Shown here: piece after piece, positions 51,678 to 63,544 of the stretch
Layout of the letters: each line of letters opens with the position of its first letter
How positions within the stretch are numbered: position 1 is the stretch's first letter
DNA from: Lachnospiraceae bacterium
GTDB taxonomy: Bacteria > Bacillota > Clostridia > Lachnospirales > Lachnospiraceae
Direction: 5' to 3'
NCBI GenBank assembly: GCA_024696945.1
Contig: JAILGF010000012.1
Coordinates: 1 to 64,000 of the forward strand
DNA length: 64,000 nucleotides
Translations under genes and position numbers: made by a program
The notes under the pieces: model-generated
Seen by the model: the letters and a program-made list of their open reading frames with translations, nothing else
What the model was told of the DNA's origin: nothing
The model's database searches: none

Positions 51678-52775
51678 ATGAAGATAAACAGAGGCAGATT
51701 ATTAGGAAAAGCTTTAATGACCGTAGCTTTAGCTTTATTTACGATTTTTATTATAAAGGTTTGCCCTGTACACGCAGAGATAAGAGAGACGGTAACTGTA
51801 AATAATTCTAAACAGTTAAAAGCAGCCATGAAGAATCCTGAAGTAGGTACTATCATTCTTAATACGGAAGCATATATAAATATTACTATTAAGAACGTAA
51901 AAGGAGCTGAAGATAAAGCTCTCACAATAATGGCTCCTAATGCTTCCATAAATAATAAAGCTGTTTTTGACCAGATTGATATAGTTTCTGTTGGCCGTTA
52001 TAAAGAAAATGTGTCAGGTAATAATATATTCCTTGGCGGGTATATGATGGACTTTAGCAGCATTGAGGTCGCAAAGAAGAAAAAGGTAAAAAGCCTCTCA
52101 TTTTATCTTGATGGGATTAGCTATCCTAAGTATACACTAAGAAAAGGCGCTAAGATTGAAAATATAAATATTATCATTCTTGGATATAACGGTGGAGTTG
52201 AAGAACCGACTGATCTGAACTTTGATCCTGATAAAAGGCAATATACTTTGGAAATTGTCAACCAAAGTGATTGCTATGAAAAATATGATATAAAGATTGA
52301 TAAAAGAGGAAATGTAACAAGTGCGACATGTGAATCCGACGGCGCTGAGTTTGCTTATGATTATTCTTATAAATATGATTCAAACGGTAAAATAAAAAAA
52401 ATTAAAGGTCACGACAATGAAAACGGTAATTTTACAATAGTATTTAAATATTCCGGTAATCTGCTAACAGAATATGACTTTAACAGCAGCAGCTTCACTT
52501 TATCAGACAATATAAAATATACCTATGATGAAAAAGGAAATATAATTTTATCTGAATATCATCACACAGATTCGATAGACGGTCAGTTATTAAAGGATAA
52601 CAGTGTTACTGAGTACAGATATGACAGTAAAAACAGGATTACGTACGAAAAGAGAATTTATAATAACGGCTTATATTATGAGTATATTTATAAATATAAT
52701 AAAGCCGGTGAACGTATAGAAACAGAAACAAATACAGGAATGGATACGGTTAGGAATCATAATGCAGATATATGA
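51678..52775 (+). CDS. Secreted YD-repeat paralogue 4 (short form) overlapping a reverse transcriptase gene
   Basis: The 365-residue short form has a signal peptide (1-35), the N-terminal domain (LKAAMKNPEVGTIILNT, YKENVSGNNIFL) and YD repeats (YKYDSNGKI, YTYDEKGNI, YRYDSKNRI). The last 13 residues (TGMDTVRNHNADI) do not resemble the family. They are encoded where the ribosome binding site and start of the reverse transcriptase lie, with a 14-base overlap. The original 3' end seems to have been replaced when the reverse transcriptase gene arrived, or the overlap evolved for coupling. GGAGAAAAAGG precedes the ATG. Confidence 0.75.
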   Translation: MKINRGRLLGKALMTVALALFTIFIIKVCPVHAEIRETVTVNNSKQLKAAMKNPEVGTIILNTEAYINITIKNVKGAEDKALTIMAPNASINNKAVFDQIDIVSVGRYKENVSGNNIFLGGYMMDFSSIEVAKKKKVKSLSFYLDGISYPKYTLRKGAKIENINIIILGYNGGVEEPTDLNFDPDKRQYTLEIVNQSDCYEKYDIKIDKRGNVTSATCESDGAEFAYDYSYKYDSNGKIKKIKGHDNENGNFTIVFKYSGNLLTEYDFNSSSFTLSDNIKYTYDEKGNIILSEYHHTDSIDGQLLKDNSVTEYRYDSKNRITYEKRIYNNGLYYEYIYKYNKAGERIETETNTGMDTVRNHNADI

Positions 52776-53997
52776 TTATGCATTTGAAAAAGACAAATGG
52801 GAACGGTTTTATGAAAGTTATTCATCAAATGAGCATGTATATAAAGCTGACGTAAAAAAATTACGAGCATATATTGATTCTGAGAAATATCTTGAAGTTT
52901 TAAGAACATATGAAATAACCGGGGAATTCAGCGTTCCTGAGCTTATTATGCTCAACAAAAAAGGAACCGAAAAGAAGAGAATTGTATTTTCCTTTGATGA
53001 TGAAGCTTCGTTACTTTTAAAGTTCTTTGGTTATTACCTTCATACTTATGATGAAAGCTTCTGCGACAATCTATATTCATTTAGGAAGGAAAGAAGCGTA
53101 AAAACAGCAGTTGCCAGGCTGTTAAAGGTTAAAAACCTATCCTTGATGTACGGCGTTAAGCTCGATATACATGACTACTTTAATTCTGCTGATACGGATA
53201 TTATAATAGAAAAAGTAAAGACAGCTTTACCGGGTCAGGATAAGTTGGTATGTTTGATCGAAAGCATATTAACTGATGATAATATTAAAATAAGGGATTC
53301 GCATGATAAAGATCGTGTCAGTATAAATGGCGGTATTCATAAGGGAATGATGGCCGGCAGTCCTTTGTCTCCGTTCCTTGCAAATCTGTATCTGGACGAA
53401 CTTGATAGACACTTTGAAGGAAAAGACGGTTTTTATGTCAGATATTCCGACGACATAATATTTTTCGCCGATACTGAGGAAAAATGTCGAGAGGAACTGG
53501 AATATATAAATAAAGTCCTTGCAGAAAACAGGCTAACTCTTAATCCCGATAAGGTAATGAAGATCGCTCCCGGTGAAAGCTTTGAGTTTCTTGGGTTTTC
53601 ATTCAGTAACGGAAACGTAGATGTAGCCAAATCTTCATTTGAAAAGATAAAGAAAAAGCTTAAACGTAAGGCAAGAGCAGTCCTAAGGTGGAAGCTGAAG
53701 AAAAATGCGGAGCCTGAAAAAACAGCCCGGGTATATATAAAATATTTTAACCGTAAATTTTTTGAAAATCCTATAAAATCGGAGCTTACCTGGTGCAGAT
53801 GGTATTTTCCCATAATAACGACTGACGTAACATTAAAGGAAATTGACCATTATATGCAGGAATGTATAAGATTTCTTTATACCGGAAAGCATACAAAAAG
53901 AAATTTCAATCTACGATATGATGACATTAAGAAGCTTGGATATAGATCACTGGTTAATGAATTCCACAAGGAAGCACCTAAAGAAGGAATCCTGTAA
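52762..53997 (+). CDS. Stand-alone reverse transcriptase (group II intron-like RT)
   Basis: The 411-residue protein carries the RT core: KLDIHDYFNS with Asp135 (motif A), GIHKGMMAGSPLSPFLANLY at 191-210 (motif B), YSDD at 228-231 in place of the common YADD (motif C), and FEFLGFSF (motif E). The last 120 residues are basic and helical with LYTGKHTKRN and LGYRSLVNEF, like a short thumb/maturase-X-like region. There is no HNH endonuclease. No group II intron RNA, retron msr/msd or DGR template repeat is seen beside it. AGGAA before ATG 52762 lies in the preceding paralogue, so the genes are translationally coupled. A terminator overlaps its stop codon. Its role is unknown. Confidence 0.9.
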   Translation: MQIYDYAFEKDKWERFYESYSSNEHVYKADVKKLRAYIDSEKYLEVLRTYEITGEFSVPELIMLNKKGTEKKRIVFSFDDEASLLLKFFGYYLHTYDESFCDNLYSFRKERSVKTAVARLLKVKNLSLMYGVKLDIHDYFNSADTDIIIEKVKTALPGQDKLVCLIESILTDDNIKIRDSHDKDRVSINGGIHKGMMAGSPLSPFLANLYLDELDRHFEGKDGFYVRYSDDIIFFADTEEKCREELEYINKVLAENRLTLNPDKVMKIAPGESFEFLGFSFSNGNVDVAKSSFEKIKKKLKRKARAVLRWKLKKNAEPEKTARVYIKYFNRKFFENPIKSELTWCRWYFPIITTDVTLKEIDHYMQECIRFLYTGKHTKRNFNLRYDDIKKLGYRSLVNEFHKEAPKEGIL

Positions 53998-54022
53998 AAT
54001 ATTTGATTACAGGATTCTTTTT
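53987..54022 (+). terminator. Terminator overlapping the reverse transcriptase stop codon
   Basis: GAATCCTGTAA (53987-53997, including the stop) pairs perfectly with TTACAGGATTC (54007-54017), followed by five T residues. It ends the 47614-53997 transcript unit. Confidence 0.93.
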
Positions 54023-54129: not shown

Positions 54130-57100
54130 ATGGGTAGAAAAGATTTGTTGTTAAATAAGATAGCAGCTATATTTGTTGCTTTGACACTTGTAGTTACGCT
54201 TATTCCAATAATGTGTGAAAAGGTTTATGTAAAAGCAGCACCTAATGCTTCCGCTGTTAAGAACGAAAGAAACACCTGCATAGGCACAACATCTATAGCA
54301 AATCCTAAATACGGTAGTGGTGGTTGGAGCTATGTTTATTTCGGTAAATATGATAATGATAAAAACGATGATATACCTGCAAGATCTGTAAAGTACAAAG
54401 TTTTAAGCAATAATACTACTGAATACAGTAACGGGAATACAGATCTTCATACAATGTTTTTGGACAGCATCTATTGCTTGAAAGAAATGCAATTTGATAC
54501 TGTTCATGCATATTCCCAGGTTTGGAAGGACAGCGATGTATATAGGTGGCTGAACGATACCGGAAGAGAGGATTCGTTTATAAATGAATGTCTTTCGGAG
54601 GTTGAAAGATCTTCGTTGATATCAAGTTATATTGCCCAGAAGGATCTTGTCGTAGGAACCGGAGATAATAATGTTGATCAATGGACTCATGACAAATTTC
54701 TGCATAGTGCTGAACTTACCGGAGAAAAAGTTTTTGTATTGGATGTGGCTGAGGTTTCAAGACTTGAATTTGGTTATCCGGTCGATCATATATGTGATTG
54801 GACTCCAAGAAATAAATATAATTATAAAGACCTTGACAGAGGTTATGGAAGCACTTCATGGTGGCTGCGATCACCCTTGATCGATAATCCAAACTATATA
54901 GCCAGCGTATCAAACGTAATGACTTACAGCAGAAATGACGGTGCTGCTATTCTTGGAGTTGCTCCGGCATTAAATATCGATCTGTCAACGATTCTTTTTT
55001 CTACAGCCGTAAAAGGAAATCTTGGGGAAAATTATTCAGAATATAAACTCACCTTAAAGGATCCGGGATTATCTATTAAAGAGACTCCCGATATGGCTCC
55101 AAGTTATAGTAAAACCAATACAGGATATTCAATTGGATTGTATTATACTTTAACCGGAGATCCGGATCAGGTATCAATAATCATTACTGACGGTGACTTG
55201 TATGCAGAAGGAACAAAAATAAAAAATTACAGTAAGCTGTATATCTATGAACAGACTTATAATGGAGTTCTTCCTAAAGAAGGTTACGGAAGCTTCCCTA
55301 CAGGCATGGATTATGACCCGTCTACGGATAAAATATATATGCTTGCTGAGAAGATAAACGGTGAAGACGAAACGGATTATGCCAGCGAACCGGTGGAAAT
55401 ATTTGTAAAGTATGCGGAAAATACTAAAATAGGTACCGGAACTATAAGTAATCCCAAAACAAAAGGCCGTTGGAACTATACATATCTTGGTCATTTTGAT
55501 CCTGACGGGACCGGTCCTTTGCCGGCAGAACCTGTTAGATACAGAATACTGAAAAAGGAAACAGATGTTTACAGCGGAGATCTTGGCGGGAAAACTATGT
55601 TTCTTGATTGTGATATGCTTATTAAGCGTATGAAATATAATAACGATCCTTCATATTCAAATGAATGGAAGGATAGTTATATATACTTGTGGCTGAATGA
55701 TGAATCCAGTAACGATTCGTTTATAAACAGCTGCTTTTCTGCCGCTGAACGGTCTGCAATAATTTCGAGCTATAAAAAACAAAAAGATCTTGTACCGGGA
55801 TTTTTGACTGACAATATAGTTACCCAAAAGACCTATGATGATTTTAAAACAACCACGGCCCTTACAGGAGAGAAAATATTTATACTGGACGTCGCAGAGG
55901 TTGAAAGAAATACATTCGGATATTATGTTTCGCATGGAGGAGCTGACTACAGAGTAAAAAAAGACTATCAAGGGAATGAATGGGCATGGTGGCTTCGTTC
56001 ACCTTATGTCGGTAATGAATCTTATACCGGAAGGGCGGGTGTTATAGCCTCAGACGGTGAGGTGCTTTATACTCAGGTAGATGGAAATTTTCATGTCAGC
56101 CCTGCATTTAATATTGACGTTTCAAAAATTTTATTTTCCTCGATCATATCAGGAACCGAAGGAGAACCGGGGGCAGAGCATAAGCTAACGATCAAGGATG
56201 ATTCATTATCATTAAATTTGATTTCAGGAAAAGAAGTCACAGTAACGGGTAATGAGGTTACGGTTCCTTGTTCCATAAGAGGAAATGTTGATTATGTATC
56301 TTATATTATAACAAATGGTGATATTAATAATGAAAATACAGTTATTAAGTTCTATAACGATCTGTATTTTAAAGTTAGTGGTTCTTTTTTGATCTCGCAG
56401 GGGGATCGTTACGGTACATTTAAAATTCCTGATGTATATGATCCTTCTACAGATAAAATTTATGTTTTTGCAGAAAACAGAAATAATGCAAAAGAGCCTG
56501 ATTTTGCCAGCAACTTAATCGAAATAAAAATCGGTGATGCTTCGGCGATTAAGATTACTCAACAGCCGGAAGATGCAACGGTTGAGGAAAATCAGATTGC
56601 TGAATTTGATGTTAAGGCTGAAGGAAATGATCTGAAGTACCTTTGGCAATATAAATTATATGAAGAGTATGGTGATGGTACTTGGGTTGATTGGACATCT
56701 AAAACTACTCCTGCTATAACCGTAGCTTATGCATCATATAGGAACAAGATGTGGCTAAGGTGTAAGATCACAGATAAGAACGGAAATCAGGTTACTACTG
56801 ATGAAGTCAGGCTTTATTATACTGCAAGCAGTAATTCCGGACCGGTAATCACTGAACAGCCTAAGAATGCAACAGTTAATTCCGGCGAACTTGCTTTCTT
56901 CAGCGTAAAAGCATCTGGAGATGAATTAAAATACTTGTGGCAGTATAAAGAGTTAGGTAAAGAAAACTGGGTTGACTGGACTACTAAAACCACTGCAGAT
57001 ATCAATGTGGCTTATGCATCTTACAGAAACGGAATGAGTTTAAGATGTATTATAACTGATAAGAACGGTAAAAAAGTGACATCTGATACGGCTGTTTTAA

Positions 57101-57951
57101 AATATACAATGTTGGCTGAAGGTCCTGTGATAACTCAACAGCCTCAAAATACTATGGTAGCTAAAAATGAATTAGCATACTTTCGCATAAAAGTAAACAC
57201 TAAAACGGTACATTATCTATGGCAATACAAACTTAAAGGTGACTCTGCATTTACGGATTGGACTACGAAGACAACAGCTGAGATAAACGTGGCTTATGCA
57301 GCATATAGGGATGGTATGACTTTAAGATGTAAAGTCACTGATCTGTCAGGTAATACTGTATTTTCGAATGAAGCGGTACTTACATACTCAACCGGAAAAG
57401 GACCGATGATCATCACACAGCCCAAAGATACAACAGTGGCTAAAGGCAAACTGGCATATTTTAATGTATTAGCAAGCGGAGCTGACCTTAAATATCTGTG
57501 GCAATATAAGCAGAAAGGACAGACAGAATTTACTAACTGGACAACTAAGACACAACCGATGATAAGTGTTGCATATGCGACATACAGAAATGGTATGGTT
57601 TTGCGGTGTATTGTGATCGATAAAAACGGTAATTCCGTCATATCGAATGAAGCGGTTTTAAAATATGTGGATAATTCCGGACCGATAATAACTAAGCAGC
57701 CCCAAAGTGCAACAGTTGGTAAGAACGAACTAGCTTACTTTAGCGTGAAAGCGACTGGTAATGAATTAAAATATCTTTGGCAGTATAAACTTAGCGGAGA
57801 GAGTACATTTACAGATTGGACAACAAAAACTACTGCCGATATAAGTGTTGCTTATGCTGAATACAGGAACGGTATGGCTTTAAGATGTATTATAACCGAT
57901 AAAAACGGAAATAAAGTAACATCGGATGAGGCAATATTATCTTATAGATGA
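54130..57951 (+). CDS. Secreted protein with two DUF6273 domains and five Ig-like repeats
   Basis: The 1273-residue exported protein has a signal peptide (1-37) and two DUF6273-type domains (about 50-300 and 435-690). Each contains the pattern VWKDSDVYRWLND / EWKDSYIYLWLND, the hallmark WWLRSP and a GVAPALNIDLS / VSPAFNIDVS ending. A linker domain follows each. Five tandem Ig-like modules (from about residue 808) end the protein. There is no sorting signal. GAGGAGG precedes ATG 54130. DUF6273 is found in secreted proteins of gut Clostridia, without a known activity. It lies between terminators at 54022 and 57977, so it is transcribed alone. A glycan- or matrix-binding role is inferred. Confidence 0.85.
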   Translation: MGRKDLLLNKIAAIFVALTLVVTLIPIMCEKVYVKAAPNASAVKNERNTCIGTTSIANPKYGSGGWSYVYFGKYDNDKNDDIPARSVKYKVLSNNTTEYSNGNTDLHTMFLDSIYCLKEMQFDTVHAYSQVWKDSDVYRWLNDTGREDSFINECLSEVERSSLISSYIAQKDLVVGTGDNNVDQWTHDKFLHSAELTGEKVFVLDVAEVSRLEFGYPVDHICDWTPRNKYNYKDLDRGYGSTSWWLRSPLIDNPNYIASVSNVMTYSRNDGAAILGVAPALNIDLSTILFSTAVKGNLGENYSEYKLTLKDPGLSIKETPDMAPSYSKTNTGYSIGLYYTLTGDPDQVSIIITDGDLYAEGTKIKNYSKLYIYEQTYNGVLPKEGYGSFPTGMDYDPSTDKIYMLAEKINGEDETDYASEPVEIFVKYAENTKIGTGTISNPKTKGRWNYTYLGHFDPDGTGPLPAEPVRYRILKKETDVYSGDLGGKTMFLDCDMLIKRMKYNNDPSYSNEWKDSYIYLWLNDESSNDSFINSCFSAAERSAIISSYKKQKDLVPGFLTDNIVTQKTYDDFKTTTALTGEKIFILDVAEVERNTFGYYVSHGGADYRVKKDYQGNEWAWWLRSPYVGNESYTGRAGVIASDGEVLYTQVDGNFHVSPAFNIDVSKILFSSIISGTEGEPGAEHKLTIKDDSLSLNLISGKEVTVTGNEVTVPCSIRGNVDYVSYIITNGDINNENTVIKFYNDLYFKVSGSFLISQGDRYGTFKIPDVYDPSTDKIYVFAENRNNAKEPDFASNLIEIKIGDASAIKITQQPEDATVEENQIAEFDVKAEGNDLKYLWQYKLYEEYGDGTWVDWTSKTTPAITVAYASYRNKMWLRCKITDKNGNQVTTDEVRLYYTASSNSGPVITEQPKNATVNSGELAFFSVKASGDELKYLWQYKELGKENWVDWTTKTTADINVAYASYRNGMSLRCIITDKNGKKVTSDTAVLKYTMLAEGPVITQQPQNTMVAKNELAYFRIKVNTKTVHYLWQYKLKGDSAFTDWTTKTTAEINVAYAAYRDGMTLRCKVTDLSGNTVFSNEAVLTYSTGKGPMIITQPKDTTVAKGKLAYFNVLASGADLKYLWQYKQKGQTEFTNWTTKTQPMISVAYATYRNGMVLRCIVIDKNGNSVISNEAVLKYVDNSGPIITKQPQSATVGKNELAYFSVKATGNELKYLWQYKLSGESTFTDWTTKTTADISVAYAEYRNGMALRCIITDKNGNKVTSDEAILSYR
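56551..57948 (+). repeat. Five tandem Ig-like coding repeats of about 280 bp
   Basis: Modules begin near 56551, 56845, 57127, 57406 and 57685. Each encodes ITxQPxxxTV, a LKYLWQYK strand, WTTKT, VAYAxYRNGM, LRCxITDKNG and a final strand. Similarity is clear at protein level but DNA is diverged, so these are old duplications. Confidence 0.9.
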
Positions 57952-58142: not shown

Positions 58143-59348
58143 ATGAAAAAACTTTTAGCAGTATTACTTATAGTTATTTCAGTATTTATGCTTACCGATA
58201 AGCTGCCTGCACAGGCTGCCGCTAAGAAAACGGTGAGAGTTACCACACAGAAGGAGCTGAATAAAGCTCTCAAGAATTCTAAAGTTGGTACCGTTATCTT
58301 AAGAACAGATTCATACGATCCGTTCATAATTTCTTCCAAGAAGGCTAAAAAGAAGAGTATTATCATTGATTGTCCCAATTCAGTTATTGAGAATAAGGCA
58401 AAGTTTAAAGCAATAACATTGGAAAATGCAAAGAAATATACCGAAAATGTATCAGGGAATACCATCTATTCATATAATTATTTTGATGATAATAACTGCA
58501 GCTTTGTAGTAGCTGCCAACAAGAGCGTTAAGAAGCTTGTTATGTATTATCCGCCTTTAATTGATTCTATGTTTTATATTGTTCAAAAAGGCGCTTCTAT
58601 TAAAGAATTAACTATTGAGAACCAGGGGAATAAGAGTACCTTCGATAAAAAGACCAATACTGTTACGCTCAATACATACGATTTCGAAGATTCAGACTAT
58701 GATGTTACCTATACTTTTACCCTTGATAAGGACGGCAGGGTTTTGAAGCATACCATGATGGGTAAATTCTGGAATGACACCTTTGAATATACCTATGATG
58801 AGTCGGGTAATTATACACAGATAGTTAGATCGAATCCGGACAATTCATATTGCAATTATACATACAGATTTGAATTTGTACCGAATACTACGCTTGTTTC
58901 AGCTTTCTACAATCTAAGTGATGATTTTTGCGGTAATACGGATTATTATTATGACAAAGATAACGTTCTTGTTGAAAAAATAGTTTATTCAGGATTAAGC
59001 GCATACAGATCATCATATGCATACGATAAAAACGGCAGGCTTGAGTATGAAGATTGTATCATTTATGAAATAGTTAACGGTGATGAGCTTGTTGAAGACG
59101 GAATGAACTCACGAAGCTACAAATATGATAAGAAGGGCAACAGAATTGAAGAATTAACTTATACTCAGTGGGGGAATTCATTTAAAACAACGTATAAGTA
59201 CGATAAGAACGGGAACAAGGTTCTGATCATCAATGAATCTGATGGCGATATAGATGAAATGAAATTAGAATATGATGAGTACGGAAACAATGAGGGCATG
59301 TACACTAAGGACGAGAACGGAAACTGGCAAAAGCTTCAGGCCGGCTGA
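58143..59348 (+). CDS. Secreted YD-repeat paralogue 5 (short form)
   Basis: The 401-residue short form has a signal peptide (1-27, ending AQAAA), the N-terminal domain (LNKALKNSKVGTVILRT, YTENVSGNTIYS) and YD repeats (YTYDESGNY, YAYDKNGRL, YKYDKKGNRI, YKYDKNGNKV). It ends GNWQKLQAG with no beta-helix. AGAAAGGAAAAG upstream supports the start. It has its own promoter and opens the second half of the array. Confidence 0.75.
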   Translation: MKKLLAVLLIVISVFMLTDKLPAQAAAKKTVRVTTQKELNKALKNSKVGTVILRTDSYDPFIISSKKAKKKSIIIDCPNSVIENKAKFKAITLENAKKYTENVSGNTIYSYNYFDDNNCSFVVAANKSVKKLVMYYPPLIDSMFYIVQKGASIKELTIENQGNKSTFDKKTNTVTLNTYDFEDSDYDVTYTFTLDKDGRVLKHTMMGKFWNDTFEYTYDESGNYTQIVRSNPDNSYCNYTYRFEFVPNTTLVSAFYNLSDDFCGNTDYYYDKDNVLVEKIVYSGLSAYRSSYAYDKNGRLEYEDCIIYEIVNGDELVEDGMNSRSYKYDKKGNRIEELTYTQWGNSFKTTYKYDKNGNKVLIINESDGDIDEMKLEYDEYGNNEGMYTKDENGNWQKLQAG

Positions 59349-59422
59349 TCGTAAATATACCAATCAGGTGCTGAATAGCTCAAATGGGTCAACGTTCAAA
59401 AACAGTAGGGGGTAGCGCTTTT

Positions 59423-61447
59423 ATGAAAAAACATATAAGGTGTTTAAGTAAATTGTTGGCAGTTTTAATTGTAAGTGTTTCGATTTTAACCTTATTGGGA
59501 CCTATAGGAATAAAGGCAAAGGAAAATGAAGTATATACCAATATAAAGATGGTATACAACGTAAAACAGTTAAAGAAGGCGATGAAGACGGATTATACAT
59601 ACAAAATCGTCTTTAGAACCGAGACTTACGATAAAATTACCATACCCTCCGTTAAAGCAGCAAAAAATAAGGATATTATCATTTGTGCAGCCCATGCTGA
59701 TGTAAAAAACAAGGCTAAGTTCAAAAGTATAACCGTTGAGAGCGTAAACAGTTATACCGAGACTGTTTCTGGAAATACGATCATCTGGAAGTGTACAAGA
59801 TACAATTCCGTTAACCTCGAGGTTTCAAAGAAGAAAAAGGTTAAGAAGCTTGTGTTCGCAGATTGGAAGGAAACAGATCCTCAATATACGGTCAGAAAGG
59901 GTGCAAAGATCAAGAGCATCGAGTTTGAGGGCGACGGATACACAAGCTCCTACGATTCAAAGAACAGAACCATAACATTAACCGGAAAAGATCCTTACAT
60001 TGATTCCGAAATGGTAAATATTAAAACTTATTCATTTGATAAGAGCGGCCGTTGTATCGAGGTCAGATGGACAAATTCAGAAAATGAGTATGATTTTCTG
60101 GATACATATGAGTATGATAAGAACGGCAACAACGTGTATTATGAAAGTAAGTCCCGGGGTTCCCGATATCTTACGATAAAATATGAATACAATTCAAAAA
60201 ATGTCCTTTTAAAACAGATAGGCGATGAAGGTACCGATAAGGAACTTACAATTGAATATTTATATGATAAAAAAGGAAATCTTGAGACAAAGTGTTACTA
60301 TGATGCATATGATTCAGTAGAAGATACAATTGAGTATTCATACGATGACAAAGGGAGGCTATCTGAAGAATTCAGCACTGCCTTTCATTATTATTTAACA
60401 TATGCTTATGATAAGGAAGGAAGGGTTACAGAGTCGAAGCATATCAAAAATGCTGAGGTTTACATAAACAGGTTTATATATGATGATAATGGTCTTCTGA
60501 TAAAGGAAATTGAAGGCTATGAGGATGATGACACCACTGTTTTTGAGTATTCACTTGACGGATGGGGAAATCGTATCTTCTCTATTTCCGGCTTTATGAA
60601 TGAAGAAGGTATTCCTGAAAACAGTTCAAGAACCGAGTATTACGTCGGAGATTTTATCGGAGAATATCCTGTATACGGAGATGCCTACACTTCACCTGTA
60701 AATGGTAAGTCATTTGATAAAACGGCATATGAAAAGGCAGGATATACGGTTGTTACGAATGTTGAAGAATTTTTAGAAGCCATAAAACCCGAAGCTACGA
60801 TCATTATTGAGCCCGGTACTTATTACATGAGCGACTATATTGAGTATCTTGATCGGGATGAATTTAACAATTCACATAAGTATGTTAAGCTTGAAGAAAG
60901 CTATGACGGATATGAGATTTACATTAACGGCGTATATGACCTTACGATATGTGGCGGAAATGCAAATCCTTCAGCTACAACACTAGTTATAGATCCAAGA
61001 TCGTCTGCTGTTTTCCACTTCACGGAGTGTAATGGATTAAAGCTCTGCTCGTTTACCTGCGGACATACCGCTACCGGATATTGCATAGGTAATGTTATAG
61101 ATCTGTATAACTGTCATGACGTTGGAATGTATGCCATGAACATTTTCGGATGCGGTGTATACGGAATAGGAGCATATTATAACAGCGGTAATATCAGACT
61201 TTATAACTGTGTCATCCACGATTGCGAAAACGGAATATTTTATTTCTGCGAACTTGATGAGGATATCGTATTTTTCGATAATTGCATGTTTTACGGTAAT
61301 TATGCGGGCGGTGAGATATATCCGACTGTGGAATGCTATCCGTTAGTTACTTTCCAGAAATGTTCATTTGGTATAAATGAAAGTAAAAAGGACGCTATCT
61401 GGGGTGAATACGTAGATATTGACTGCTTATGGTCAGAAAGTGAATAG
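59423..61447 (+). CDS. Secreted YD-repeat/beta-helix paralogue 6 (long form)
   Basis: The 674-residue protein starts at ATG 59423, which gives a normal signal peptide; AGGGGG lies about ten bases before it. An in-frame ATG at 59384 would add a polar extension and lacks a ribosome binding site. Parts: signal peptide (1-32), N-terminal domain (VYNVKQLKKAMK, YTETVSGNTIIW), YD repeats (YEYDKNGNNV, YAYDKEGRV) and beta-helix (about 435-665) with CGHTATGYCIGNVIDLYNC and FGCGVYGIGAY. In the beta-helix the RG of the GHTxRGxCEG motif is replaced by TG and the Glu by Ile. Confidence 0.75.
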   Translation: MKKHIRCLSKLLAVLIVSVSILTLLGPIGIKAKENEVYTNIKMVYNVKQLKKAMKTDYTYKIVFRTETYDKITIPSVKAAKNKDIIICAAHADVKNKAKFKSITVESVNSYTETVSGNTIIWKCTRYNSVNLEVSKKKKVKKLVFADWKETDPQYTVRKGAKIKSIEFEGDGYTSSYDSKNRTITLTGKDPYIDSEMVNIKTYSFDKSGRCIEVRWTNSENEYDFLDTYEYDKNGNNVYYESKSRGSRYLTIKYEYNSKNVLLKQIGDEGTDKELTIEYLYDKKGNLETKCYYDAYDSVEDTIEYSYDDKGRLSEEFSTAFHYYLTYAYDKEGRVTESKHIKNAEVYINRFIYDDNGLLIKEIEGYEDDDTTVFEYSLDGWGNRIFSISGFMNEEGIPENSSRTEYYVGDFIGEYPVYGDAYTSPVNGKSFDKTAYEKAGYTVVTNVEEFLEAIKPEATIIIEPGTYYMSDYIEYLDRDEFNNSHKYVKLEESYDGYEIYINGVYDLTICGGNANPSATTLVIDPRSSAVFHFTECNGLKLCSFTCGHTATGYCIGNVIDLYNCHDVGMYAMNIFGCGVYGIGAYYNSGNIRLYNCVIHDCENGIFYFCELDEDIVFFDNCMFYGNYAGGEIYPTVECYPLVTFQKCSFGINESKKDAIWGEYVDIDCLWSESE

Positions 61448-61504
61448 AACACAGGTGGTCGATAGAGGAAAGGTTCTTTACAACAGGATTTAAGGAGGAT
61501 GAAA

Positions 61505-63544
61505 ATGAAAAGAAGAGGAAAAGGTATTTTTAAGACAGTCATTACCATGATGCTGGCATTGGTTATGGTGCTTACCATTATCGACCGTGCTCCGGTACAG
61601 GCGGCAGACAACAACACTAAAGTAGTTTATTCGGTTAAGCAGTTAAAAAAAGAATTAAAAGCTAAAGCAGCAGCTACAGTTGTATTTAGGACCGAGACCT
61701 ACGATAATGTAACAATTCCGAAGGTAAAAGCTGCAAAAAACAAGGATCTGATCATTATTGCAGGCAATGCCGGAATTAAAAACAAAGCAAAATGCAATAC
61801 AATTACTGTTAATAACGTAAACCAATATACTGAAGCCGTTTCCGGCAATACCATTATCTGGAAGGATCACGAGTTTGAAATCTTTGAAATTGCAAAGAAG
61901 ATAAAAGTAAACAACCTTATTTTTAAGAAATGGGACGGTATTGATCCTGAGTATGTTATCAGAAAAGGTGCAAAGATTAAGAATGTTTCCATTGAAACAG
62001 ATTATACTGTGAGCAATTACGATTCAAAAACAAGAACTCTTTCCGTGGATTATCTTGATTCTCGACTTGAATCCGGTTCGTTTACTGTTGCAAAATTCAA
62101 ATTCGACAAGAGCGGTCGTATCTTAGAGAGCGAACTGCATGATGATTACAATTTCCTTGATTCGTATGATTCTGCAACATGTTATAAAACGTACAAGTAT
62201 GATAAAAACGGAAATCTTACCGAATACAATAGCGATTACGAAGGTGATTATACATATTCTGTAAAACGTGAATATGATTCAGATAACAATCTTATAATGC
62301 TTTCGTCATCCGATAATTCCGATAGCAGCTTTAAGTCTAAATACAAATATGATTCAAACGGAAACAAGACCTATTATGCTATTTTGAGCGGTGAAGACTA
62401 TGCAAATTATGAGTATCTTTTCCAGTATGATAAAAAGGGCAGATGCGTAGAAGAATGGATCAAACAGCTTGATTATAAGTGTACATATAAGTATGATTCA
62501 AACGGAAGACGTACTGAAATGCATAGTGTCGGAAGTAACGAAGATGATCTGGTAATATATGATTACGATAAAAACGGACTTCTTATTGAAAGAACAGAGA
62601 ATATTAAGGGATACGGCGTAAGTATTGAAAAATACGTTTACGACTCTTTTGGTAACCGTATATATTCAGTTTTTGATACAATACCGGAAAACGGTGAACA
62701 TGACAACTCTATGAGGACCGAGTATTATTATAACGAATATATCGGTGACTATCCTGTATATGAGGACGGTTTTGTATCTCCTGTTAACAATGAGTACTTT
62801 GATAAAAAGACTTATGAAAATGCGGGCTATACCGTTGTTTCAAGTGTAGAGGAGCTTCTAAATGCAATAGCTCCCGGAGCAAAGATAATAATAGAGCCCG
62901 GTTACTATAACATGAGTTTATATATTGAAAACACTGATTCGTATAAAATAGATAATCCATATATTTATATCGATGAAAATTTTGTTGATGGTAAAGAACT
63001 TGTTATTTATGACTGCGATGACCTGTTGATAAGCGGTGGTTCTGCTTACAGAGGTGATACCACTCTGGTTATCGATCCAAGATATTCTGCAGTAATAAAA
63101 TTTGAAAAATGTAATGATCTGAAGCTCAGTTCATTTACCTGCGGACATACGAACAGGGGAACCTGTGAGGGTAATGTAATAGACCTGTATCAATGTAAAA
63201 ACGTTGACTTTTACAATATGGATATGTTCGGATGTGGAGTTTACGGCCTGGGTGCTGATGTTGTAACAAGTAATGTTAATGTATATAACAGTGTTATACA
63301 TGATTGCAGTGCTGGTCCGTTTTGCTTCAACGGGATACAGGACAGCGCAACGTTTACAAATTGTGTATTCTATGGTTCCGAAGGCGGCGGATATTGGTCC
63401 AAGGTATATGATGATTCAAGAGTAACCTTCAAAAAATGTTCATTTGGCGAAGAGGAGACCAATTCATTGTCTTTCCAAGACAAATTCGATTTTATCGATT
63501 GCCTTTGGAGTGAAGTAACCCGTTATCCGGAGTACGGCTACTGA
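61505..63544 (+). CDS. Secreted YD-repeat/beta-helix paralogue 7 (long form)
   Basis: The 679-residue protein starts at ATG 61505, six bases after AAGGAGG (61492-61498). The ATG at 61499 directly abuts the ribosome binding site and is less likely. Parts: signal peptide (1-33), N-terminal domain (VYSVKQLKKELK, YTEAVSGNTIIW), about nine YD repeats and beta-helix with CGHTNRGTCEGNVIDLYQC and FGCGVYGLGAD. It is closest to paralogue 1 in the final residues (WSEVTRYPEYGY against VSEITMYPEYCD), suggesting duplication across the array. Confidence 0.75.
   Translation: MKRRGKGIFKTVITMMLALVMVLTIIDRAPVQAADNNTKVVYSVKQLKKELKAKAAATVVFRTETYDNVTIPKVKAAKNKDLIIIAGNAGIKNKAKCNTITVNNVNQYTEAVSGNTIIWKDHEFEIFEIAKKIKVNNLIFKKWDGIDPEYVIRKGAKIKNVSIETDYTVSNYDSKTRTLSVDYLDSRLESGSFTVAKFKFDKSGRILESELHDDYNFLDSYDSATCYKTYKYDKNGNLTEYNSDYEGDYTYSVKREYDSDNNLIMLSSSDNSDSSFKSKYKYDSNGNKTYYAILSGEDYANYEYLFQYDKKGRCVEEWIKQLDYKCTYKYDSNGRRTEMHSVGSNEDDLVIYDYDKNGLLIERTENIKGYGVSIEKYVYDSFGNRIYSVFDTIPENGEHDNSMRTEYYYNEYIGDYPVYEDGFVSPVNNEYFDKKTYENAGYTVVSSVEELLNAIAPGAKIIIEPGYYNMSLYIENTDSYKIDNPYIYIDENFVDGKELVIYDCDDLLISGGSAYRGDTTLVIDPRYSAVIKFEKCNDLKLSSFTCGHTNRGTCEGNVIDLYQCKNVDFYNMDMFGCGVYGLGADVVTSNVNVYNSVIHDCSAGPFCFNGIQDSATFTNCVFYGSEGGGYWSKVYDDSRVTFKKCSFGEEETNSLSFQDKFDFIDCLWSEVTRYPEYGY

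Follow-up and report, generated by a model that had tools for sequence, protein, structure and literature searches.

What does a stand-alone reverse transcriptase (RT) do inside an array of surface-protein paralogues in a Lachnospiraceae bacterium? The question arises from the first 64,000 bases of one contig of this genome (the whole stretch of DNA analysed, hereafter the window), in which the RT gene overlaps the end of an array gene. A sequence-only reading of the window offered two ideas: that the RT copies or spreads the surface proteins, or that it is a defence RT. The second is the better one, because the best match of the RT is the PADLOC model RT_UG26, while the first was not supported. 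We consider it rather probable that the UG26 RT, the RT-5 RNA and usually a small partner protein form a tripartite system like DRT10, located at scattered genome sites. The earlier description of the locus was accurate yet incomplete: the partner gene and the RNA lie on the same contig, 189 and 856 bases past the end of the window (Table 1). A single-window reading can thus mislead when the missing parts begin so close beyond the edge.

Table 1. Features of the RT locus; positions preceded by "contig" lie past the end of the window
Feature	Position	Strand	Remarks
Secreted array paralogue	51678-52775	+	365 aa; upstream neighbour of the RT, outside the system
Overlap of RT start and end of preceding paralogue gene	52762-52775	+	14 bases
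UG26 RT gene	52762-53997	+	411 aa, single open frame; RVT_1 E 1.3e-23
Terminator-like hairpin over RT stop	53987-54022	+	11-bp stem 53987-53997/54007-54017, 9-nt loop, T run; read from the sequence
DUF6273 protein	54130-57951	+	first gene after the RT
Three array paralogues	58143-59348, 59384-61447, 61499-63544	+	between RT and partner
Further ORF	start 63571		with the DUF6273 and array genes, parts the RT from partner and RNA
Partner gene	contig 64189-64794	+	201 aa; starts 189 bases past window end
RT-5 RNA (Rfam RF03026)	contig 64856-64961	+	856 bases past window end; own model 64835-64981
Terminator-like site after RT-5	contig 64972-64999		consensus scan

Classification of the reverse transcriptase

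The RT is an uninterrupted stand-alone protein in which the catalytic YSDD is intact, as had been noted from the sequence; direct reading also gives the motifs KGMMAGSPLSPFLANLYL and GSPLSPFLANLYL, and motif B is GSPLSP. Its sole Pfam match is RVT_1, and the window genome (232 contigs, 86% complete) contains one other match to this family. The PADLOC model RT_UG26 (PDLC03764) aligns with the RT over its full length (residues 1-404) at 490 bits (E 8e-148). The runner-up in PADLOC is a general RT model with 134.6 bits, and the next specific models are UG4 (98 bits), UG17, which is the RT of DRT10 (97), Cas1_IIIb (96), UG27 (94), Drt9 (87) and Drt3a (81). The RT is therefore a member of UG26 (unknown group 26 among the UG/Abi RTs), an uncharacterised UG/DRT class. 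In a quick maximum-likelihood tree of 93 RTs, with other UG classes not knowingly among its rows, the 50 UG26 rows including the window RT form one clade (SH-aLRT 99), and the window RT groups with RTs of its own genus.

Compared with six orthologues, the RT shows dN values of 0.17-0.24 and saturated dS; it is under selection for its protein sequence. Two tyrosines near the C-terminus, Tyr386 and Tyr394, are invariant across 14 RTs and could serve as putative primers of cDNA synthesis. The terminator-like hairpin over the RT stop is absent from the list of our terminator scan, which was limited to loops of 3-8. As for previous work, UG26 is mentioned for cold-seep viruses in an excerpt of PMC10504277, the text of PMC8934634 gave no hit for the term in a word search, and in the literature searched we found no function, RNA or partner for this class.

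Co-occurrence of UG26, RT-5 RNA and a small partner gene

The RT, the RT-5 RNA and a small gene that recurs beside UG26 RTs, here called the partner, co-occur tightly and lie close to one another. At most loci the interval between partner and RT measures ~150-400 nt, and it is there that Rfam names RT-5, an RNA of ~145 nt. UG26 was found in 37 of 397 genomes of the family and RT-5 in 32 (31 over the Rfam cut-off), every one of them with UG26, so that none of the 360 UG26-less genomes had the RNA. A second, overlapping set of 99 relatives gave 14 genomes with UG26 and 13 with RT-5 (12 over the cut-off), all inside those 14, and again none among the 85 UG26-less genomes; in the 14th UG26 genome (G019) the contig stops inside the partner. 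Fisher values for the co-occurrence (3e-42 and 7e-29) overstate independence, because the sampled genomes are related and the two samples overlap. Beside UG26 RTs, the RNA reached the gathering score at 33 of 34 places, and in the window genome it scored 73.0 bits against a gathering cut-off of 45.7.

The Rfam model, with stricter filters that lose some weak matches, missed RT-5 in five UG26 genomes (G648, G745, G753, G759 and G784). With our own RT-5 model, G784 scored 80.9 bits and G753 gave a weak match of 24.9 bits (E 0.005), while no match appeared beside the RT in G648, G745 and G759. The UG26 RTs of these last three genomes (L192-L194; 298-382 bits) are deep-branching, and neither RT-5 nor the partner was found with them. 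The neighbour of the RT at L193 and at L194 is a large gene, interpreted as a peptidase/ABC exporter; at L192 the open RT frame extends into a protein of 1271 aa.

The partner was found in 13 of the 99 relatives, the window genome included, all among the 14 UG26 genomes; this count is largely in-sample because the profile was built from such loci (13 proteins). The same profile matched 29 of the 397 family genomes, 27 of which are absent from the first set. UG26 is present in 26 of these 29, out of 37 UG26 genomes in all. Matches in the remaining genomes (G628, G636 and G677) are weak (E 3e-7 to 1e-4) and correspond to DUF2726 proteins.

Altogether, 32 of the 39 RT places have RT-5 within 2 kb upstream, with gaps of 26-630 bp (median 67.5), and 26 have the partner there; the order partner, RT-5, RT is seen at 24. 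Our own model adds RT-5 at one further place (L188). For the 13 RTs with no partner in this interval, the circumstances differ: in the window genome the partner lies ~10 kb downstream, in G546 both partner and RNA are on another contig, the RT of G518 ends up 312 bp from a contig end, and the other ten have no such explanation. The Rfam name RT-5 suggests that an association with RTs was seen earlier. Among the papers listed by the literature searches, none was seen to connect UG26 with RT-5 or with the partner, although the link may already be known.

Distribution and genomic neighborhood

Among 50,697 phage and 72,556 plasmid records, no place covers 80% or more of the RT, and a pattern-based search of viral contigs gave just two weak matches (27-29%). 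The flanking proteins, of which 108 of 123 selected were scanned, belong to 106 Pfam families, the commonest being present in 3 members and few being defence families. Given this diversity and the small share of defence families, there is no obvious defence island, a descriptive statement made without a control set. Two genomes, G496 (contigs C71 and C127) and G631 (C12 and C73), carry two diverged UG26 systems each, with their own RT-5 and partner. A Bacteroidales record (L038) likewise has RT, RT-5 and partner.

The near absence from phage and plasmid records, the mostly housekeeping neighbours and a contig block common to several members of the genus would all suit a different explanation, namely a host-owned, non-defensive RT-RNA-protein system, for example in stress or DNA repair, that is old in the family. 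We regard this explanation as unlikely. Against it stands the patchy presence of UG26 in both genome sets. In the quick tree, moreover, two distinct UG26 lineages occur inside one genus and the Bacteroidales member is nested among the others, which points to transfer, and the two genomes with paired diverged copies also fit poorly with an old family possession.

Arrangement of the module in the window genome and its clade

Loci in the clade of the window RT begin with the RT, followed by the partner and finally RT-5; all eight loci of this clade with both elements (L053 and L039-L045) have the RNA 3' of the partner gene and thereby downstream of the RT as well. No gene intervenes between RT and partner in L042, L044 and L045, while other genes stand between them in L039, L040, L041, L043 and the window genome. 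In the last case array genes are now inside the module, and 10.9 kb separate the RT stop from RT-5, which is directly followed by a terminator-like site. Since the array genes split the parts, the RT and RT-5 should act in trans. Consensus scans placed a promoter-like site before the partner and the terminator-like site after RT-5; relative to shuffles the promoter count was below and the terminator count above, and promoter-like sites near the partner were no commoner than in shuffles.

This arrangement bears on whether RT-5 is the RT's own RNA or merely acts in cis on the mRNA of the RT or the partner, as a leader or regulator. The position of RT-5 directly 5' of the RT gene at most loci would be natural for a leader. 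However, in the eight loci of the window clade it leads neither mRNA, and in the window genome in particular its position beyond the partner gene and the RT gene means that it is no leader of the RT mRNA. G688, where the order is RT-5, partner, RT, also speaks against it, and we hold the leader explanation to be improbable.

Structure of the RT-5 RNA

Covariation was assessed over 44 aligned RT-5 sequences and 33 pairs, the 3' hairpin being excluded from the pair count because its columns are badly aligned. In total 89.4% of cells are paired, compared to 73.5% in shuffles and 42-48% in slid versions of the structure; as the structure was placed on one of the 44 sequences, the comparison with slid versions favours it. 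GCCUGC near the 5' side and GCAGGC, which lies in a hairpin loop, form a pseudoknot of 6 bp. It is 99.6% paired, with changes on both sides at each of the six pairs, whereas the structure line of RF03026 leaves both stretches unpaired. These observations support a covarying pseudoknot in RT-5 that is new as far as checked and that offers a concrete structural target. Upstream of the RT at L186 (in G753) there is a degenerate RT-5-like RNA, under the Rfam cut-off, in which the pseudoknot is kept by eye.

Past the 3' hairpin a stretch is conserved that reads UUYAAAG or UUUAANG in most rows and that could be the template. A DRT10-style A-B-A' repeat was not supported in that single candidate region (mean length 3.30 compared to 3.14 in column shuffles, p 0.12).

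The partner protein

The last 65 residues of the partner align with DUF2726 (PF10881) proteins (hhalign probability 94%, E 1.4e-7, 3-sequence profile). The remaining parts differ: the DUF2726 proteins found here have a Cys-rich start, whereas most partners have an N-terminal helix and a linker. The predicted structure of a close relative of the window partner, modelled from 5 sequences with a mean pLDDT of 59.6, consists of a long low-confidence helix, a disordered stretch and a C-terminal domain with blocks at pLDDT 63-91. This domain reads H-E-E-E-H-E-H, to be compared with the alpha-beta-beta-beta-alpha-beta core of PD-(D/E)XK. Its best match among solved structures is the restriction enzyme BstEII (E 3e-3, prob 0.99, TM 0.30), and none of these matches reaches E 0.001 or better.

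In the active-site columns of 36 partners (two of 38 sequences were left out, L051 at a contig end and L189 for a wrong start), D is present in 5 and E in 12, while K two residues past the E position occurs in none. Three DUF2726 proteins compared have N at the K position. As the D, E, K set is not kept, we rejected an active PD-(D/E)XK nuclease; the likeness in fold together with the lost residues indicates that the partner probably has a nuclease-like fold that lost activity. A partner whose modelled C-terminal domain resembles a restriction-nuclease fold devoid of catalytic residues is new as far as checked.

In 33 of 34 partners the hydrophobic moment of the first helix exceeds the mean of the shuffles, with p <=0.05 in just 11 of 34, and the reading of this helix as a membrane anchor was set aside on this count. 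The N-terminal pattern of M followed by small and hydrophobic residues, present in 34 of 36, is circular because the start codon was chosen by that pattern. A Pfam scan of 13 members found no SLATT domain. L168 and L181 have longer proteins (293 and 371 aa) that carry the partner's domain at the C-terminus; both still adjoin RT-5 and a UG26 RT, and one has a cysteine-rich stretch at its N-terminus.

The surface-protein array around the RT

That the RT lies inside a paralogue array was borne out: the array protein 43438 matches at six positions of the window (45573, 47617, 51702, 58131, 59447 and 61505), and several array paralogues have RHS/YD-type repeats. The C-terminal part of the DUF6273 protein contains four repeat copies (56927-57932) with a spacing of 279-282 nt that are 62-71% like the reference copy. 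The overlap between the RT and the preceding paralogue is also real (Table 1). The special pairing of RT and paralogue that had been read from it did not withstand comparison with near orthologues of the RT, which are 65-76% identical. Six of these have a visible upstream gene (contig ends truncate L042 and L043), and the overlap is absent from all six. A paralogue precedes the RT in one, L039, 98 bp away; the others have GGDEF genes (L040 and L041), a glycoside hydrolase (L045), another secreted protein (L044) or an unrelated 242-aa protein (L051), as named by similarity to window genes or by eye. With other genes preceding five of the six RTs, the RT-paralogue pair was discarded as a unit, and the coupling of the RT to the array paralogue is incidental.

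The idea that the RT copies or diversifies the array draws on its location inside the array next to the DUF6273 gene and on the presence of array-type proteins in 11 of 12 genus genomes with UG26 compared to 4 of 12 without, a difference that may come from shared descent. Yet the four genomes without UG26 (G005, G007, G018 and G020) still have such proteins; G007, 81% complete and with no UG26 match, contains five, two of them in tandem. The full-length proteins nearest to 43438 occur in other genomes (60, 56 and 52% identity), the best in its own genome being at 50%. There are no recent repeats either, as none of the repeat copies listed in the 41-64 kb region (>=40 nt) is above 81% like its reference. 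Taken together with the varied genes upstream of the orthologous RTs and an RT that has no SQ motif of the diversity-generating retroelement (DGR) type, these observations make the copying idea highly implausible. In genus members without UG26 we found no clean empty site, the flanking genes being too rearranged.

The second RT of the window genome (L052, G000:C165:1-5655) has 402 aa and the motif GSPVSQ, and no UG model scores above the generic RT model. The gene immediately before it, at the contig edge, encodes the C-terminal end of a DUF6273 protein, and no template/variable repeat is listed in these 5.6 kb.

Exclusion of other RT classes

The NCBIfam group II, retron and Drt models that match the RT are all far under their cut-offs. 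A retron was rejected with the St85 model at 55.6 bits against a cut-off of 235, and a DGR because the RT has GSPLSP instead of the SQ motif, as the sequence-only reading had it, and because no near-identical repeat pair is listed in 41-64 kb. That reading had likewise noted no intron RNA, and indeed no Rfam family reaches its cut-off within the window. PQGG in motif B is a mark of group II RTs, and most other RTs from the phylum sample have it. Although the model group_II_RT_mat does match the RT at 120 bits, this is under its cut-off of 300 bits, and with no intron RNA visible in the window, no PQGG in motif B and a UG26 clade that stands apart from those RTs in the quick tree, a decayed group II intron RT is next to inconceivable.

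Proposed mechanism and comparison with known systems

The favoured tripartite reading unites an RT class with an Rfam RNA and a small protein that has no name, three orphans for which no function was found, in one testable unit. The UG26 RT would bind RT-5, whose pseudoknot and outer stem may hold it in place, and a short unpaired stretch of RT-5 would then be copied into DNA. By analogy, the system probably makes RNA-templated cDNA, and it is probably antiviral. The partner, with its N-terminal helix, flexible linker and nuclease-like domain with an incomplete active site, might bind either the ribonucleoprotein or the DNA product and would carry the response, most likely against phage. Against this reading count the ten RTs whose missing partner has no explanation, the three deep-branching RTs with neither RNA nor partner, the unsupported DRT10-style repeat, the lack of an obvious defence island and a promoter signal near the partner no stronger than in shuffles.

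A more specific version can be offered only tentatively. It describes a new tripartite DRT in which a pseudoknotted template RNA, similar to telomerase RNA, would be copied to a defined DNA, and in which an N-terminal helix would carry a dead restriction-nuclease domain that reads this DNA and triggers the response; in the window genome the parts would have been split by the expanding array and would act in trans. If the system is DRT10-like, it would extend the set of RNA-templated DNA-writing systems by one whose partner is of a new kind.

Four papers describe RTs of DRT2, DRT3a, DRT9 and DRT10 that copy their own ncRNA (PMC12632851, PMC13174585, PMC12483538 and PMC13213688). Class 2 DRT systems, which comprise these four, are marked by protein-primed cDNA made on an ncRNA template, by phage protection and by a structured ncRNA encoded with the RT; the last of these is found at most UG26 loci. 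DRT9, made up of a UG28 RT and an ncRNA according to an excerpt of PMC12483538, resembles the present system in pairing an RT with an ncRNA and is among the nearer RT models; it differs in its poly-U template tract, no universal one being seen by eye in RT-5. Another parallel is DRT10, which an excerpt of PMC12632851 presents as a UG17 RT, an ncRNA and a SLATT protein. It also has three parts, its ncRNA of 137 nt is similar in size to RT-5, and UG17 is among the nearer models to the UG26 RT, whereas the partners described here are without SLATT.
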